DNA of 64,000 nt from NCBI GenBank assembly GCA_016788205.1, contig JAEUTA010000014.1, positions 62,001 to 126,000 on the forward strand. Direction: 5' to 3'. The notes beneath the pieces are model-generated. The model saw only the letters and a program-made list of their open reading frames with translations. It was not told the DNA's origin and searched no databases. This DNA comes from Flavobacteriales bacterium (lineage in GTDB: Bacteria; Bacteroidota; Bacteroidia; Flavobacteriales_F; PHOS-HE28). The translations under genes and the position numbers were made by a program. Of this stretch, positions 2,879 through 48,059 are shown piece after piece. Each line of letters begins with the position of its first letter. Within the stretch, counting starts at the first letter, position 1.

Positions 2879-5800
2879 ATGTTCAACCCGATCAGGACCC
2901 TCTCCCTCGCCACCATGTTCGTGGTAACGGCCGCTCAGGCGACCGTCTACTACGTTTCGCCCAGTGGCAGCGATACGAACAATGGCACCAGCCAGGCCAC
3001 GCCATGGAAGACCATTGCTCGTGTACAACAGCTTTCGACCACTGCGGTGGCAGGTGACCAGGTGTTGTTCCAACGGGGGGGCACCTATGTTGGGCAGCTT
3101 ACGTGGAGCACTTCTGGTACGAGTGCTGCGAATATCATCATCGGTTCATACGGTACAGGCAATTTGCCGGTGATCAGCGGTGCAACCACGGTGACCAACT
3201 GGACCGCCCACTCCGGCAGTATCTACAAGGCATCGGTATCGCAAGCGGTGAAATATGTTTTCGTCAACGGCGCATTGCAAACGTTGGCCCGCTATCCCAA
3301 CACAGGCTGGCTTCGTGTGAACACGTCAACGAGCACTTCACTCACCAGTACAGGCATAACCCAGGCCAATGGCTACTGGAATAATGCTCAGCTGGTGATC
3401 CGCAGCACCAACTGGTGCTATGAGAATCGCACGATCACTGCACAGACCGGGACAACGATCTCCTATCCCGCGATGACCTACACCACCGGGAACTACAACT
3501 GGGGATTCTTCTTCTGTAACAAGCTCAGCGAACTGGACTCACCGGGAGAATGGTACCACGATACCGCGACCGGCACGCTCTACCTCTGGGCTCCCAACAG
3601 CGCGAACCCCAGTTCCCTCACCGTCGAAGCCTCTGTTCATGACTACGGTGTTTCAATTGATTGGCAACGCACGCGCGTGAAGGTGCAGGACATCGCATTC
3701 CGGGGCCAGCGAGTGGCCGGGGCATACGTAACCGGGCCATACAATACGGTGTCCGGGTGTAGTTTCCAGCAGAGCTTCCATGGCATCCAGAGCTATGGCA
3801 GCAACAATACCTACGCTGGTAACAACTTCCAGAATACGTACGCCGCAGCCTTGGCTGTGATCGATAACGGCACGACCGTATCCGGGAATACGCTTACGGA
3901 CATCGCGTTGGTGGCGGGTCTTGGTGAAACGGCTTTCGGTTACCACGGTATGCGCGTTGGTGGCGGTGTCAATGCCGTACGGGACAATCGGGTGCACAAC
4001 ACCGGCAACTCGGGCATCTTCGTTGGTGAGACCACCACAGTGGAGCGTAACGTGGTCTCTAATTTCTGTGTCACCTTGAACGATGGCGGTGGCATCTATT
4101 GGGACAATGGCACCGGATCCTTGATCCAGGACAACATCATCCGTGATGCGGTAGGCAATATCGAGAGCGCGGCAACGAACTACTCGGTGAACGGCAAGAT
4201 CCTTCCTGGTATCTATTTCGGCAATGCGCTCATCCAGAACTGCATCGTGCAGCGCAACACGGTGAGCAATTGTTCCATCGGTATCCACGTGGACCATACC
4301 ATGGTCACGTCCGGGGTGCAGGTGAAGGATAACAAGCTGTTCAACAATGGGGTACAGCTGAACATCTCGGATCTGTCGAATTACAACGGTGCGGGCGCCA
4401 CCGCGCCCTATTTCGTGGCTGCGTACAACACGGTATACTCCGGCAATGAGCTCTACTGCCTTGCCCCGGACCAGTTGTGCCTGCAGCTATGGAACAACTA
4501 CTTACAGGGCAATGTGGACTTTGGAACGTTCACCAACAACAAGCTGTACAACCCGTTCAACGAGATGAGCATCCGCAACTGGAACCTGGCGGCGGGTAAC
4601 TCGAAGGTGTACTCGTTGGAACGCTGGCGCACCGAACGGAACGAGGAGTCCGGTAGCACACGCAGCCCACTGCGTTCGGCCTTGTATAGCACGACGAGCG
4701 AGCTCAGTACCAACCTGGTGCTCAATGGCAACTTCACTTCGAACGTGACCGGGTGGGGTGGTTGGCCGACCAATGCGACCGTCACCCGGGACGTGACCTA
4801 TCTGGATAATGGAGCACTTAAAGTGGTGCTGCCCAATGCCACGCAGAGCGCGCAGTACAACCTTTGGAATCCGGACCAGTTCAGCATGCAGAACGGACAG
4901 TGGTATCGTTTCCGTTTCAGCATCCAGAGCAGCATGCCCGGCATCGTGAACGCTGCGGTGAAAGGGGTGAGCCAAATGGCCAGTGGCTACGCCATCTATC
5001 AGAATCAGATCCCGTTCGACGCGGAGCGCCGGAACATGGAGATCTACTTCCAAGGGAACCTTACGGAACAGGCGGTGACCATGTTCTCGCATTTCTTCCC
5101 GGAGAACACGTACTGGTTGGACAATGTGGAACTGCACCGTGTTACCGTGCAGCCGCGACCCGCAGCGAACGAGCACAAGTTGCTTTCCAACGAGACCGGT
5201 GTTGCACAGGCCTTCACTCTACCGGCCGGTTGCTGGTACGATATGAGCGGTACGCTACTGAGCGGTCCGCAAACGGTGGCGGCCTACTCATCCAAGATCA
5301 TTTACAATGTTCCCGGAACGGGTTGTAGCGTGGTGGCGGCTACCACCGTTGGAGCCAAGGTGCTACTGGGCGGTCCGCTCAATTGGAGTACCGGGCTGAT
5401 GCGCGACAATTTGCGTTCGGCAGGCCTCATCCCCGCCGCAGAGCCCTATACGGCACTTGGCTACGTTCTGGAGAACGCGGGAGCCACCTTGACCAGCAGC
5501 CTGCTCACCGGCACCGGTGCACAGGCCATCGTGGATTGGGTGCTCATCGAATTGCGCAACGCTGACGGTACAACGGTAGCAGGGCGTCGCGCGGCGCTGC
5601 TCAGGGCCAATGGTGAAGTGGTGAGCACTTCCGGTGAGCTACAGATACCGTTCGCCGTGAACCCTGTGGGCAAGAAGATGGTGGTGAGGCATCGCAACCA
5701 CCTTGCCGCCATGGCCAGCACGGCCATCACCGCGAACGGTCAGGTGGTGGATTTCGGTGCTGCCACCACGACGCTGTATGGTACGCTACCCATGAAGCTC

Positions 5801-6064
5801 GGCGGCGCCTATCGTGCACTATGGCCCGGTGATGTGAACACCGATGGAACGGTGATCTACACGGGTTCAGCGAATGATCGCGATCAGGTGTTGAGCACCA
5901 TCGGAGGTCAGGTTGCCACAAATACCATGAGCGGCTATACCCGCAGCGATGTGAACCTGGATGGTACCGCCAAGTACACCGGTACGGATAACGACCGCGA
6001 CCTGATCCTGAACACGATCGGCGGTGTGGTGCCAACGACCACCCGCGTAGCGCAGCTTCCCTGA
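2879..6064 (+). CDS. Secreted right-handed beta-helix protein with dockerin-like C-terminal repeats
   Basis: This is a 1061-residue exported protein. Residues 1 to about 22 form a signal peptide (hydrophobic core, AQA cleavage region). YYVSPSGSDTNNGT, at about 24, is the usual opening of pectate-lyase-like parallel beta-helix proteins. Residues to about 560 are rich in short Asn/Gly/Val turns such as NTVSGCSF and GNTLTDI, typical of helix rungs. From about 610 to 750 a carbohydrate-binding-like jelly roll runs from NLVLNGNF to WLDNVEL. Near 981 and 1023 two repeats of the form GDVNxDGxxxYTGxxNDRD occur, like the calcium-binding dockerin type found in Bacteroidota surface proteins. No T9SS sorting domain follows them. 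The enzyme activity and substrate, probably a polysaccharide, cannot be named. Its stop abuts the convergent batE stop. Confidence 0.85.
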   Translation: MFNPIRTLSLATMFVVTAAQATVYYVSPSGSDTNNGTSQATPWKTIARVQQLSTTAVAGDQVLFQRGGTYVGQLTWSTSGTSAANIIIGSYGTGNLPVISGATTVTNWTAHSGSIYKASVSQAVKYVFVNGALQTLARYPNTGWLRVNTSTSTSLTSTGITQANGYWNNAQLVIRSTNWCYENRTITAQTGTTISYPAMTYTTGNYNWGFFFCNKLSELDSPGEWYHDTATGTLYLWAPNSANPSSLTVEASVHDYGVSIDWQRTRVKVQDIAFRGQRVAGAYVTGPYNTVSGCSFQQSFHGIQSYGSNNTYAGNNFQNTYAAALAVIDNGTTVSGNTLTDIALVAGLGETAFGYHGMRVGGGVNAVRDNRVHNTGNSGIFVGETTTVERNVVSNFCVTLNDGGGIYWDNGTGSLIQDNIIRDAVGNIESAATNYSVNGKILPGIYFGNALIQNCIVQRNTVSNCSIGIHVDHTMVTSGVQVKDNKLFNNGVQLNISDLSNYNGAGATAPYFVAAYNTVYSGNELYCLAPDQLCLQLWNNYLQGNVDFGTFTNNKLYNPFNEMSIRNWNLAAGNSKVYSLERWRTERNEESGSTRSPLRSALYSTTSELSTNLVLNGNFTSNVTGWGGWPTNATVTRDVTYLDNGALKVVLPNATQSAQYNLWNPDQFSMQNGQWYRFRFSIQSSMPGIVNAAVKGVSQMASGYAIYQNQIPFDAERRNMEIYFQGNLTEQAVTMFSHFFPENTYWLDNVELHRVTVQPRPAANEHKLLSNETGVAQAFTLPAGCWYDMSGTLLSGPQTVAAYSSKIIYNVPGTGCSVVAATTVGAKVLLGGPLNWSTGLMRDNLRSAGLIPAAEPYTALGYVLENAGATLTSSLLTGTGAQAIVDWVLIELRNADGTTVAGRRAALLRANGEVVSTSGELQIPFAVNPVGKKMVVRHRNHLAAMASTAITANGQVVDFGAATTTLYGTLPMKLGGAYRALWPGDVNTDGTVIYTGSANDRDQVLSTIGGQVATNTMSGYTRSDVNLDGTAKYTGTDNDRDLILNTIGGVVPTTTRVAQLP

Positions 6065-6823
6065 TCAGATCCGTTCCAAGGTCGTTGGGGGCATCCAGCC
6101 GACGCTTCCGTTGGCCAGTTGTACCTCGCTCCAGCCATTATCCTGCTGAAGGATGGAGACTTTCGTTCCCTTATGAAGTACGAAGAGCACCGTTCCGCCT
6201 TCCCGTGGTTCGCTTCTAACGTCGACCTTGGCGCTCATGATGATGGCTTCCCGTTCATCGGTCAACTCCCGGTCGCGGAAAGCTGCGAAAGCGATGGCAA
6301 GGACCGTTACCAGTAGCATGATCCCGCCCAGTCCGAAGAGCAGTCGTCGTGCGGTGCGGTGATGCACCCCCACGCCTATACCGAGAACCACGAAGAGGAT
6401 CAAGCATGACCATAAGGAGCGTCGCGCCCATTGGTCCGCATCCCGGCCACCTCTCAGCTTACCCCACGTGGACCCCAAGGTGAAGGAGGGGAGTTCGTTC
6501 ACCCGGTCCACAACGTTCTGGCGCGCCAATTCCAGATTGGTGCGTACGTCACCATCGCCCGGTGCCAGCCGCAGGGCGCGTTCGTAGAAAAGGATCGCGT
6601 GCGGGATATCGTTCAGTTTGAAATGGCAGTTGCCGATGTTGTACAGCAGGGAAGGAGAGGTGAAGGCCGTATGCGCGGAGTCGAAGAGCACCAGCGCCTT
6701 CGCGTGGTCACCCTGGGCATAGGCGCGGGACGCTTGGGCGATCAGGGTGTCGGCCTCTACGCGTGAAAGCGCCGCGGAGGACATGCTGAGCAGCAGCAGT
6801 GGGAGAAGCAGGATGTTCTTCAT
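6065..6823 (-). CDS. batE: BatE: TPR and SH3 membrane protein
   Basis: This 252-residue protein is the last gene of the Bat operon. It has a signal peptide (residues 1-20), a TPR pair (about 25-100, with LLYNIGNCHFKLND), two membrane segments (about 135-155 and 162-185) and a C-terminal SH3-like domain (about 195-250, with VDVRSEP and GWMPPTTLERI). This order is that of BatE. The protein probably acts with BatA to BatD at the inner membrane and periplasm, but the biochemical role of Bat proteins is not settled. Its ATG overlaps the batD stop by 4 nt. The stop directly abuts the stop of the convergent beta-helix gene with no spacer. Confidence 0.87.
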   Translation of the reverse strand: MKNILLLPLLLLSMSSAALSRVEADTLIAQASRAYAQGDHAKALVLFDSAHTAFTSPSLLYNIGNCHFKLNDIPHAILFYERALRLAPGDGDVRTNLELARQNVVDRVNELPSFTLGSTWGKLRGGRDADQWARRSLWSCLILFVVLGIGVGVHHRTARRLLFGLGGIMLLVTVLAIAFAAFRDRELTDEREAIIMSAKVDVRSEPREGGTVLFVLHKGTKVSILQQDNGWSEVQLANGSVGWMPPTTLERI

Positions 6824-44088: not shown

Positions 44089-45096
44089 TCAAGGCCTGAA
44101 ATTGCTGATCGGTTGCAGCATGCGCTCCAACGCCGGACGTTGTACCACCACCAACAAGGTGTCTTGGATCACTGCGTCCATGCGCAACTCGTCGAACAAT
44201 GGACGAGCAACGCCGAAAGGGGGGTCTTCACCACGGTAGGGCTGGTACCAGAACTTCAACCGGGTGACCTCCCCATCGCGTTTGGTGAAGGTAAGGACGT
44301 GGTTGGGGGTCGTCTTCAACAGGGAGTCCCGGTAAGTCGGTTCGCGTTGGATCTCCTCATAGTTGAGTTGTTTGGTGCTGAGTATGGCGCCGTTCACCAA
44401 GACCGTGTCGAAACGGTAGGGTCTTCCGTCCACGTCCAGCAGACTGAATGAACCTGTGGGGTCTTGCAGGATGGTATACGAATTCGCAGGTGCCAGCGGG
44501 GTTTCCAGCTTCACGGAAGCTAGGTCGCGCAGTTCGTTCAGCTTGAAGTACGCGCTACTGCGCCAGATGTCAAGGTCGGTGTGGAACCGGGTGCTCAGGA
44601 TACCGGTGAAGCCTGTCATGCCCAGGATGAACGGAGCGTTGCTGCGTCCCTCGTCCGGTTTCTCCAGTAGAGCGTATGTGCCGAAGTGGTCCTTGGTGCC
44701 GTGTCCGACGATCCAGATCTTCGAGGGCTTGGCCCCACCTTGGTAGATCTCCACTTTCTTGCCCACGGCACCCATCACGCGTAACATCTTCGCTTCTGCG
44801 GCTTTGGGCACGGGGCTTTTCACCTCCACGCGTTTGAACGTGCGAAGCAGCAGGTTCACATCATGCTCCTTGGCGGCGAACTTGTCGTTCACGGTCCATC
44901 CGGCTGCGGACCGCTTCAGGTCGATGGTACGGCCATGCTGGTCAGCGATGAAGATGCGCGTCACCGCTCCGGTGTCCGGCACCGCGAAATCGCTCAGCGG
45001 ACGGTCCAGCGTGGTGGGAGCGGAGTTGCGCGAGAGCCACCACGCCACGGCGCCCAGGGCAACGACCACGATCAAAAGGAGCAGCCTACGGTTCAT
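44089..45096 (-). CDS. DUF4340 protein of the Gld unit
   Basis: A 335-residue protein with a single N-terminal membrane helix (MNRRLLLLIVVVALGAVAWWL) and a periplasmic part of several repeated beta domains typical of DUF4340 proteins (DRPLSDFAVPDTGAVTRIFI). DUF4340 genes commonly follow gldG-like or ABC exporter genes. Function is unknown. Its ATG overlaps the gldG stop by 4 nt. Confidence 0.83.
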   Translation of the reverse strand: MNRRLLLLIVVVALGAVAWWLSRNSAPTTLDRPLSDFAVPDTGAVTRIFIADQHGRTIDLKRSAAGWTVNDKFAAKEHDVNLLLRTFKRVEVKSPVPKAAEAKMLRVMGAVGKKVEIYQGGAKPSKIWIVGHGTKDHFGTYALLEKPDEGRSNAPFILGMTGFTGILSTRFHTDLDIWRSSAYFKLNELRDLASVKLETPLAPANSYTILQDPTGSFSLLDVDGRPYRFDTVLVNGAILSTKQLNYEEIQREPTYRDSLLKTTPNHVLTFTKRDGEVTRLKFWYQPYRGEDPPFGVARPLFDELRMDAVIQDTLLVVVQRPALERMLQPISNFRP

Positions 45097-46829
45097 GCGG
45101 TACGGGTGGCTTTTCTTCGGCGGAAATACTGGTAGGCCATGCCCACCAGCACGGCGAGGATCACCGGCACCACCGTGTTCACGATCTGCCACCACGGGCG
45201 ATCCTGCACGATGCGGTCCGGATCCAATTGCCGCAGGGTGATCTCGCGGGAGCGGATGCTGATCAGGCTCTTGTCGTTCAGCAGGTGGTTCACGGCGTTC
45301 ACGATGAACTCGCGGTTGCCGTAGATCTTGGCATTGGCGTAGCGGTCGAAGCCCAACGTATAGAACATCCCCTTCACGGGATCCACACGATTTCCGATGA
45401 CATCACCATCGCTCACGACGAGTTGTGCGCTGCGTTTGCCTTTTTCCCGGTAACCAACGGCCGGGTCGGCGGTGAAGTTCGCTGGAAGCCTGTCCAGGAA
45501 GGCGCTCATGAATTCACCTTCAAGCAGCACGGCCATGGGCATGTACGGCGTGCTCTGGCGCTCGAAGGGGGGGGGCATTTCCACCACGTTCAGGCTTACG
45601 CGTACCGGATTGCGCTGTGCCAGCGAGGCGGGGGAACTGGTGAGCAGGATGGTCTTTTTCACTCCATCGGTAGCGATGGTGTCCATGCTACTTGCGAAAC
45701 GCAGGTGCACAGGGTCGATGTTGCTGACGACCGGGTGCTTGCTCTCGGGGATCAAGACCGGTTCCCAATACCAAGGGAAGCGCTCAAGCTTGCGCTGGTT
45801 GCCGTACGGTTGTGTGTACAGTTCGATGGGCGCACAGCTCCGATCGAGCACGAGGTCCTTGTTTATGCGCACGCCGTACGCGAAAAGTTGCTCATCGATG
45901 CCAAGTTCGTACGGCACTGCGATGCTGAACTGGTTCTTCCGCAGGCTGTCCAAGTGCGCGTTCATCGGATCGATGAGCCACAGTACGCGACCGCCGTTCA
46001 TGATGAACTGGTCGATGACGTACTGGTCGCGTTGGGGGAACGCACTGTCCGGTTTTGCGATGATCAGCGCGGCATAATCGTTGGCGCGGTATTTCATCCC
46101 GGCCACGGTACGACTAAGGGCGTCCACTTTCTCGTCTATGCGTACTCGGCTCACATCATAGGTCTCTTCCAACGCACTGGTGATGTCGGCTACTTCCATC
46201 GCTTCCAATTCACCATGCCCTTCCAGGAAAGCGACCTTGGCTTTTTCCTTCTGCGTGACCTGGTTGAACGCGTTGGCCAGTTCGTACTCCGTGTTGTTGA
46301 TGGAACGGTTGACGATGTCCGCGTCCGGCGTGCGCAGCTGGGTCTTCAGTAGTTGCAGGGGCACGGTCTTGTCGCGGTAGGTGACCAACGCGCCAGGGAA
46401 TACGATGCGTTCGCTGAAACTCTCCTTGTCGCGCATGCGGATGCTGCTGTACTGCAGGCCTTCCTTCTGCAACTGGTCGTAGGTCTCCTTACGCGTCTTC
46501 TCGTCCTCGCTCTCGCTCGGGTCGATGAAGGTGTACTGCAACTTCTCCGGCTGCACAACGCGCATCTCATCCAGCAGATCCTTAATGGAGCGCGAGAAGC
46601 GTTGCAGGTCGGCAGGCAGTTCCCCGGCGAGGTAGACCTTCACGTACACCACATCCTCCAACTCGCCGAGCATCTGCTTGGTCGCGGGCGTCAGCGTGAA
46701 GCGTTTCTCATTCGTCAGATCGGCACGCAGGCGAAGGAACGACCCGATGAACAGCACGAGTCCCACGATCGCCAGGCCCATCAAGAGCTCCAGCAGGTCG
46801 GCGGTGCGTGGGCTGCGGGTCTTGCTCAT
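45093..46829 (-). CDS. gldG: GldG: gliding-motility ABC exporter component
   Basis: A 578-residue protein with an N-terminal membrane helix (about 12-33), a large periplasmic GldG/ABC-type uncharacterised domain (about 40-500, LFIGSFLRLRADLTNEKRFTLTP) and a C-terminal helix (about 549-568). With GldF and the ATPase GldA it forms a transporter needed for gliding and T9SS-related motility in Flavobacterium. GldA is not in this window. It overlaps the upstream COX1-like gene and the downstream DUF4340 gene by 4 nt each. Confidence 0.93.
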   Translation of the reverse strand: MSKTRSPRTADLLELLMGLAIVGLVLFIGSFLRLRADLTNEKRFTLTPATKQMLGELEDVVYVKVYLAGELPADLQRFSRSIKDLLDEMRVVQPEKLQYTFIDPSESEDEKTRKETYDQLQKEGLQYSSIRMRDKESFSERIVFPGALVTYRDKTVPLQLLKTQLRTPDADIVNRSINNTEYELANAFNQVTQKEKAKVAFLEGHGELEAMEVADITSALEETYDVSRVRIDEKVDALSRTVAGMKYRANDYAALIIAKPDSAFPQRDQYVIDQFIMNGGRVLWLIDPMNAHLDSLRKNQFSIAVPYELGIDEQLFAYGVRINKDLVLDRSCAPIELYTQPYGNQRKLERFPWYWEPVLIPESKHPVVSNIDPVHLRFASSMDTIATDGVKKTILLTSSPASLAQRNPVRVSLNVVEMPPPFERQSTPYMPMAVLLEGEFMSAFLDRLPANFTADPAVGYREKGKRSAQLVVSDGDVIGNRVDPVKGMFYTLGFDRYANAKIYGNREFIVNAVNHLLNDKSLISIRSREITLRQLDPDRIVQDRPWWQIVNTVVPVILAVLVGMAYQYFRRRKATRTA

Positions 46830-47332
46830 GTCGTCTTCTTTCGGAACGGACTGACAGCTAAGTTGATGACGAAACAGGCTTGTCCTATGAGCGCAAGGGC
46901 CAGTATGAGCGTCATCAGATCGATCACACCATCATCCTCGATCATCGGCATTTCGGAATAGGAGTAGTACCGACGCGGTGCTGCACTGAGCGCAAGGGAC
47001 CGGTACACGAGCGGTGCTGGCAACAACACGGAAGCAGCAGAACCTATGAAATGGGTCCAGCTGAGTACCGCACTTAAACGAAGACGTGTTAGCGCAGTGT
47101 AGCGCGCGTAAAAAAGAGAAAAGAAGAGTGCAACGATCGTCATCGATCCGAAGATCGAAGCATTGGAGGTGACGAAATAGGTGTCATGTATGCCGATGTC
47201 CATCACTGTGTTTCCGACTTGACTCGCTTCATTCGAGAGCAGCATCGGCAGAAGGACGTAGAGCAGAGCGATTATGGCGAGCACCATGAAAAGCCTGGAA
47301 AGCCAGCGGGAGGAGCGTTCAGTGGTTCTCAT
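46826..47332 (-). CDS. COX1-like remnant membrane protein between gldF and gldG
   Basis: A 168-residue protein with about four membrane segments. Residues 44-54 (MDIGIHDTYFV) match the conserved HDTYFV string of cytochrome oxidase subunit I, but the AHFH haem ligands that should follow are replaced by TSNAS. It is far shorter than COX1 and cannot be a working oxidase. The start MRTTERSSRW at 47332 lies 1 nt from the gldF stop. Overlaps gldG by 4 nt. It may be a lineage-specific membrane partner of the Gld exporter. Confidence 0.6.
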   Translation of the reverse strand: MRTTERSSRWLSRLFMVLAIIALLYVLLPMLLSNEASQVGNTVMDIGIHDTYFVTSNASIFGSMTIVALFFSLFYARYTALTRLRLSAVLSWTHFIGSAASVLLPAPLVYRSLALSAAPRRYYSYSEMPMIEDDGVIDLMTLILALALIGQACFVINLAVSPFRKKTT

Positions 47333-47333
47333 C

Positions 47334-48059
47334 CTACCAACGTCGGCTTTGGAGCGCAGTGCGCGTGAGCAAGAGGAACACGGTGATGGTGCCCAGGAAG
47401 TAGAGCACATCGCGCAGGTCCACCACGCCACGGCTCAAGCTGTCGTAGTGGTCCTGGATACCGATGGACTTGATGGCGCCTTCCAACGCACCGAAGGCAT
47501 CGAAGCTGGCGATGAGATCGAAACCCAGGTAGAGGAAGAAGCACAGAAAGACCGCGATCATGAAGGCCACCACCTGGTTCTCGGTGATGGACGAGGAGAA
47601 CACACCGATGGCGCCGAAGCAGCAGGCGAGGAGCAGCAACCCGATGTACGAGCCGATGATGCCTCCGGTATCCAGGTTGCCCTTCGGCATGGCCAGCTCG
47701 TGCAGGCTGAGCCAGTAGATCAGGGTGGGCAGCAACGCGAAGAGGATCAGGATCACGGCGGCGATGTACTTGGCCAGCACCAGTTGCATCTCGGTGAGCG
47801 GCTTGGTGAGCAGCAGTTCGATGGTGCCGGTGCGCCGTTCCTCGCTGAAGCTGCGCATGGTGACGGCCGGTACAAGGAAGAGGAACACCCAGGGAGCGAT
47901 GAAGAAGAGCGGGGCGAGGTCGGCATAGCCCGTGTCCAGGATGTTGTTGGGGAACACCCAGAGGAACAGGCCGGTGAGCAGCAGGAACACCACCACCACC
48001 ACCTGGCCGATCAACGACCCGAGGAACCCCCTTACTTCCTTGAATATGAGGACACGCAT
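47334..48059 (-). CDS. gldF: GldF: gliding-motility ABC permease
   Basis: A 241-residue permease with six membrane segments (about 15, 50, 100, 135, 164 and 216). MRVLIFKEVRGFLGSLIGQ opens the family, and FSEERRTGTIELLLTKPLT is an ABC-2 type feature. Start 48059 fits. A -7-like box TATCTTGG (one mismatch) lies on the minus strand at 48074-48081, 14 nt upstream. First gene of the unit gldF, COX1-like, gldG, DUF4340. Confidence 0.92.
   Translation of the reverse strand: MRVLIFKEVRGFLGSLIGQVVVVVFLLLTGLFLWVFPNNILDTGYADLAPLFFIAPWVFLFLVPAVTMRSFSEERRTGTIELLLTKPLTEMQLVLAKYIAAVILILFALLPTLIYWLSLHELAMPKGNLDTGGIIGSYIGLLLLACCFGAIGVFSSSITENQVVAFMIAVFLCFFLYLGFDLIASFDAFGALEGAIKSIGIQDHYDSLSRGVVDLRDVLYFLGTITVFLLLTRTALQSRRW

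Follow-up and report, generated by a model that had tools for sequence, protein, structure and literature searches.

The locus considered here lies in a 64,000-nucleotide stretch of DNA (the window) from a Flavobacteriales bacterium and comprises three genes on the minus strand whose ends touch or nearly touch. The first is gldF (47334..48059), which encodes the permease of the gliding motility ABC transporter and matches TIGR03518 with 319 bits against a cut-off of 288.5; the last is gldG (45093..46829), which encodes the auxiliary/substrate-binding protein of the transporter and matches TIGR03521 with 565 bits against a cut-off of 389.85, so both flanking genes are those that an earlier note on this DNA had named. 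Between them sits an open reading frame (46826..47332, minus) for a 168-residue membrane protein, which we call X and which matches neither of these two models in an NCBIfam profile search. X begins with ATG, ends with TGA, is separated from gldF by 1 nt (position 47333) and shares the tetranucleotide ATGA (46826..46829, minus) with gldG, its stop overlapping the gldG start; the sequence reads here exactly as the earlier note had described it. The ATG start is supported by an N-terminus common to the X proteins of three genomes, namely G000, which is the window's own genome, G041 and G017. Downstream of gldG the window contains dnaN. In F. psychrophilum, too, gldG follows gldF and precedes dnaN, according to PMC5682007, which terms the order of the two gld genes highly conserved among Flavobacteriia. 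Additionally, a 368-residue reading frame lies between gldG and dnaN in the window (44089-45195, minus) and has no NCBIfam match at E 1e-5; frames of 336-373 residues occupy the corresponding position in G017, G015 and G007.

X descends from the last four helices, which we take to be TM IX-XII, of COX1 (CtaD), subunit I of the aa3-type haem-copper oxidases. The motif HDTYFV, from which the resemblance had been proposed, is present at residues 49-54, and similarity searches bear the proposal out. TIGR02891 matches residues 39-163 with an E value of 3.1e-6 and Pfam COX1 (PF00115) matches with 1.1e-4; this similarity is significant, but the scores of 26.1 and 21.7 bits lie below the curated cut-off of 670.75 and the gathering score of 34.8, respectively, and the set of helices and ligands is incomplete. 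The host's own full-length COX1 is 35-38% identical to X, the E value being 4e-15 when the genome was searched and 1e-19 when the two proteins were compared pairwise. A profile built from X and its short relatives (23 proteins, described below, with no full-length COX1 among them) finds solved COX1 chains with E values down to 1.9e-20 and bovine COX1 residues 344-475 with an E value of 2.2e-12. It is these profile matches to solved COX1, together with a structural alignment in the same register, that establish the derivation from TM IX-XII. X thus has the TM IX-XII fold and register in common with COX1 but is without TM I-VIII, measures 168 residues where COX1 has about 600, and is encoded between gldF and gldG rather than among oxidase genes. 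A recent duplication of the host's COX1 was rejected as the source of X, given an identity of only 35-38% and the absence of any grouping with the COX1 of the genus in either of two trees.

COX1 has twelve core transmembrane helices and six conserved histidine ligands. Like COX1, X carries a D-x3-HDTY motif, a helix-XI histidine and a PRRY loop. The first of these, DIGIHDTY (D45-Y52; 47177..47200, minus), is predicted to form a beta hairpin and, in the register given by the alignment of the short-protein profile to solved COX1, corresponds to bovine D364, H368, D369, T370 and Y371. The second, H94 (47051..47053, minus), occupies the position of bovine His413, where yeast COX1 has Gln. The third, the arginine loop PRRYYSYSE (residues 119-127; 46952..46978, minus), is the same as in the host COX1 at all 9 of 9 residues. 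Both haem ligands of the stretch, in contrast to these features, are gone: HDTYFV is followed by V-A-H-F-H in COX1 and by T-S-N-A-S in X, and the alignment sets N57-A58-S59 (47156..47164, minus) in place of the H-F-H that carries the haem a3 and haem a ligands, with N57 and S59 at the ligand positions, as the earlier note had observed. We take these two positions to be bovine 376 and 378. The remaining ligands of COX1, those of CuB and one more for haem, sit in helices that X does not have. With TM I-VIII absent and both haem ligands of its own stretch lost, X cannot be an oxidase of a known kind.

The predicted structure agrees with this derivation. An AlphaFold2 model of X (pLDDT 82.8, pTM 0.80) contains four helices, at residues 3-32, 57-82, 88-116 (broken) and 134-163, and a beta hairpin at residues 43-56. 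The comparison to COX1 proposed in the earlier note was made with two methods. In VIA-align the seven best chains are all COX1 (Z 8.0-11.7 over 138-143 residues, rmsd 3.4-3.8), in the same register as the sequence alignment, with the best unrelated chain at Z 8.0; helical bundles reach middling scores by chance, and the structural matches to COX1 come from VIA-align alone, a Foldseek search of the PDB having returned no match at E <= 0.001 and unrelated proteins in its top rows.

X is one of a larger set of short COX1-like proteins, for which we use the term mini-COX1. Searches across the class turn up reading frames of this kind, similar to the last third of COX1 only, next to full-length COX1 and long frames of more distant similarity. 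Reading 24 short candidates from outside the genus left 18 in the alignment (A2); those dropped were a 94-residue stub (L098), four that touch contig ends (L085, L087, L090 and L096, of which L087 and L096 look like real COX1 ends) and one with no motif (L099). The host genus is therefore joined by at least 18 further verified genes, in 18 genomes of 10 other Bacteroidia families; these counts are lower bounds and leave out short matches in, for example, G119, G336, G152, G397, G582, G554 and G696. Among the matches listed for a phylum sample of 395 genomes, the short ones all fall in the same class. The defining features of the set are a short reading frame, COX1 TM IX-XII only, D-x3-HDTY, the helix-XI histidine and a helix-XII asparagine, and X shows every one. 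Mini proteins from other genera are 15-26% identical to X and share its length class, conserved residues and loss of haem ligands, whereas their gene neighborhoods differ. Across the 23 proteins (five gld-linked and 18 others), the hairpin residues are kept in 21 (D45), 15 (H49), 20 (D50), 21 (T51) and all 23 (Y52), the helix-XI histidine in 22 and the helix-XII asparagine in 21; the arginine loop is a trait of X and some relatives (R120 in 8/23, R121 in 7/23). Histidine stands at the first haem ligand position in 4/23, at the second in 8/23 and at both in 2/23, these last being the X of G015 (A-H-E-H) and L084 (E-H-L-H). The set has no Pfam or NCBIfam family of its own; at E <= 0.1, 17 of the 23 match Pfam COX1 and 16 match TIGR02891. 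We found no description of such short COX1-like proteins among the open-access papers searched, and the set is apparently undescribed.

The genes beside mini-COX1 genes are unrelated to one another; phosphoglucose isomerase, GTP cyclohydrolase I, an aminotransferase, a caspase-domain protein and a VTT-domain protein all occur. Of 20 neighbors scanned (one of which adjoins the stub L098, absent from the alignment), 13 have a Pfam family at E 0.001, and none of these is an ABC transporter, gld or respiratory family. An all-against-all comparison of the neighbors finds likeness only between pairs of loci. L092:4995-5441 and L097:4817-5212 (G134 and G032, of one family) each hold a mini gene near phosphoglucose isomerase or a homologue with a 4-nt neighbor overlap, a shared context that suggests vertical descent there. 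At another locus (L083:4019-5428 and 5727-6233), a mini-COX1 gene has a caspase-domain protein gene on one side and an SPFH/band-7 protein gene on the other. Mobile origins were also considered: no mini protein matches PADLOC at E 0.01 (0/23), one of the 23 has a weak match to PHROGs (E 0.0056), two scans of viral contigs contain no relative of X, and in the 20 of 30 plasmid records listed no match extends over more than 77% of X, with identities of about 28-32%. A phage, plasmid or defense origin was rejected on the empty viral scans, the lack of PADLOC matches and the fact that the plasmid genes, where named, are oxidase subunit I.

Trees were built from 32 (quick tree) and 22 (careful tree) of 55 collected COX1 stretches, L089 and L101 being left out of the latter. 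The mini proteins fall mostly apart from full-length COX1, on long branches; the split is clean in the quick tree and appears in 36% of the bootstrap trees of the careful one. One mini protein, L079, groups with full-length COX1 in the careful tree (in both trees, according to another part of the analysis), so the set may or may not go back to one origin. Within the genus, the X proteins of G000, G041 and G017 form one clade (support 100/98). On a tree of gldF and gldG combined, the five carriers occupy two places, G007 with G015 and G017 with G000 and G041, and the latter clade has six other members without X; Fitch parsimony requires three changes, or else one gain and nine losses. A single clade of all five X proteins is not rejected (p-AU 0.143), and X may thus have been gained just once, long ago, with a role linked to gld.

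X is under purifying constraint, about four times weaker than that on its neighbors. Between G000 and G041 the dN/dS of X is 0.194 (36.3 nonsynonymous and 47.7 synonymous changes), compared with 0.047 for gldF and 0.046 for gldG; against G017 synonymous sites are saturated, and no ratio is given. Protein identity is 81.5% between the X of G000 and G041, 35-37% between either and G017, and 23-28% for the other pairs, among them G015 and G007, which are sister genomes, at 27%. The GC3 of X is 60-62% in four of the five carriers and 79% in G007, compared with 89% for gldF, 80% for gldG and 83% for COX1 in the host. A low value fits capture or acquisition, weak codon selection or low expression, but we give it little weight because 9 of the 56 longest non-overlapping reading frames of the window have a lower GC3 still, several of the 9 being antisense to real genes.

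How constant is X at this junction? It was found in 5 of the 45 genomes of the host genus that were searched (G000, G041, G017, G015 and G007). The gldG match is present in 43 of the 45, and the junction is readable in all 43, a count that leaves out G046 and G057: gldF and gldG are adjacent in 38, and the remaining five have X in between. In the 38, gldF and gldG are separated by -3 to 90 nt; the 202 and 230 nt that seem to part them in G010 and G011 are gldF coding sequence. A close sister genome, G003, has no X and a gldF that is 95% identical. Outside the genus, each gene was searched for in 149 genomes of the class; 132 of the 141 with a gldG match entered the count, which leaves out G000, as the window's own genome, and G038, G110, G114, G121, G127, G135, G139 and G147, for which no usable partner is among the matches listed. 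This gave 124 pairs whose two genes share a contig and strand and are no more than 5 kb apart; 120 of these pairs belong to genomes outside the genus, and none of the 120 has X or a 500-nt insert. Gaps there run from -37 to 82 nt, plus one of 274 nt in G067 that holds a 97-residue DUF167/YggU-like frame (L189:1790-2083, G067:C110; TIGR00251, 91.5 bits). Apart from this one, the 120 pairs have gldF and gldG adjacent, the order that the earlier note had taken as normal. In 8 of the 132 genomes (G082, G085, G090, G103, G118, G154, G159 and G170) the two genes lie apart or on different contigs, possibly through a split of the locus or contig breaks, and in G025, G029, G093, G129, G151, G155 and G161 the frames that carry the gldF match and the gldG match are equally long, at about 800 codons, which looks like a fusion into one gene. 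The gldF-X-gldG arrangement itself recurs in five genomes from two separate clades of the genus, and also in a public record (DLGQ01000069.1, Flavobacteriales bacterium UBA7690) whose source may be identical with one of these five carriers; an assembly artefact was rejected on these grounds. Neither of the two outcomes that the earlier note had named as fatal to its reading, no likeness to COX1 or an arrangement limited to one faulty assembly, was observed. X adjoins GldF and GldG with overlapping start and stop, yet it is no constant part of their locus, and the best reading is that GldFG in general does not need it.

We consider it somewhat better than an even chance (roughly 55%) that X is an orphan mini-COX1 which is functional and was captured by the message of gldF and gldG. 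X stems from the C-terminal third of an aa3-type COX1 and is part of a loose Bacteroidia-wide gene set; in a minority of the genomes of one Flavobacteriales genus it has landed precisely at the gldF-gldG junction, where it would be translated together with its neighbors. The protein would be a cofactor-free four-helix scaffold in the inner membrane, with a topology that is likewise predicted, in which the D-x3-HDTY hairpin on the periplasmic side, the helix-XI histidine and the helix-XII asparagine would hold a COX1-like fold. Its mode of action would be to bind other membrane proteins by this surface, probably independently of GldFG. The lack of a conserved partner among the neighborhoods of mini genes counts against the proposed binding role.

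The strongest competitor makes X a lineage-specific accessory subunit of GldFG, translationally coupled, that packs against GldF and tunes the complex where present. In its favor are the 1-nt gap, the ATGA overlap, the purifying selection on X and the use of one junction in two separate clades by all five mini-COX1 genes of the genus, a coincidence that counts against chance capture and leaves a role as Gld partner a minor but real chance. The absence of X from 38 of 43 junctions in the genus, that of G003 included, and from all 120 pairs elsewhere, the relatives that are not gld-linked but stand beside unrelated genes, and the identity of just 27% in two sister genomes all speak against it, and the argument from position is further weakened by the DUF167 gene at the same junction in G067. 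We regard such a subunit as unlikely, and the same low but real probability applies to the partnership with the Gld exporter that the earlier note had put forward. A broader proposal is that Bacteroidia possess an undescribed, widespread family of four-helix proteins that lack catalytic activity and arose from the final third of COX1, with the propionate/Mg-side hairpin and helix-XI histidine kept, the haem ligands lost and a new role in binding membrane proteins. In one Flavobacteriales genus, members of this family would have been recruited, perhaps repeatedly, to the gldF-gldG junction, where they would serve the gliding transporter as a partner that varies and evolves fast. This is a tentative proposal, a shade less likely still.

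Orphan capture also compares well with roles tied to respiration. X might act on the respiratory oxidase as a COX1 look-alike that binds the partners of COX1, whether as assembly factor, regulator or decoy; the kept residues are those of the propionate/Mg side and helices XI-XII of COX1, and a longer frame of COX1 type, of 377-669 codons, accompanies the verified mini gene in all 18 genomes outside the genus. Co-occurrence is uninformative, however, when at least 358 of 395 class genomes have COX1 matches, no verified mini gene stands beside a respiratory gene among the scanned neighbors, and G015 (a 69% complete genome) has X and no full-length COX1 among its matches; we consider this role doubtful. 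A role for X in electron transfer, by a new mode of binding haem or some other redox cofactor, is very improbable: the A-H-E-H and E-H-L-H sequences and the nearly invariant helix-XI histidine would suit it, but both ligand histidines occur in two of 23 proteins, neither is in the X of the window, and TM I-VIII are absent. Finally, the earlier note had called X a COX1 remnant, of which the descent stands and the implied decay does not; fast divergence and patchy presence would be expected of a neutral, decaying fragment, but a dN/dS of 0.194, a confident four-helix model and a frame kept intact in five genomes make such a fragment hardly credible.

An orphan mini-COX1 captured by gldF-gldG has several implications. 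COX1 is well known and gene fragments are common; a selected, ligand-free, four-helix piece of COX1 that occurs across a class and, here, inside a gliding operon is not described in the open-access papers searched. A fragment of a highly conserved respiratory enzyme persists as a selected membrane gene without its haem ligands and can be compared across many families. The gldF-gldG arrangement, in turn, tolerates insertions. Additionally, the residues that are kept without the haem histidines, namely D-x3-HDTY, the helix-XI histidine and the helix-XII asparagine, may help to tell the requirements of the COX1 fold from those of catalysis.
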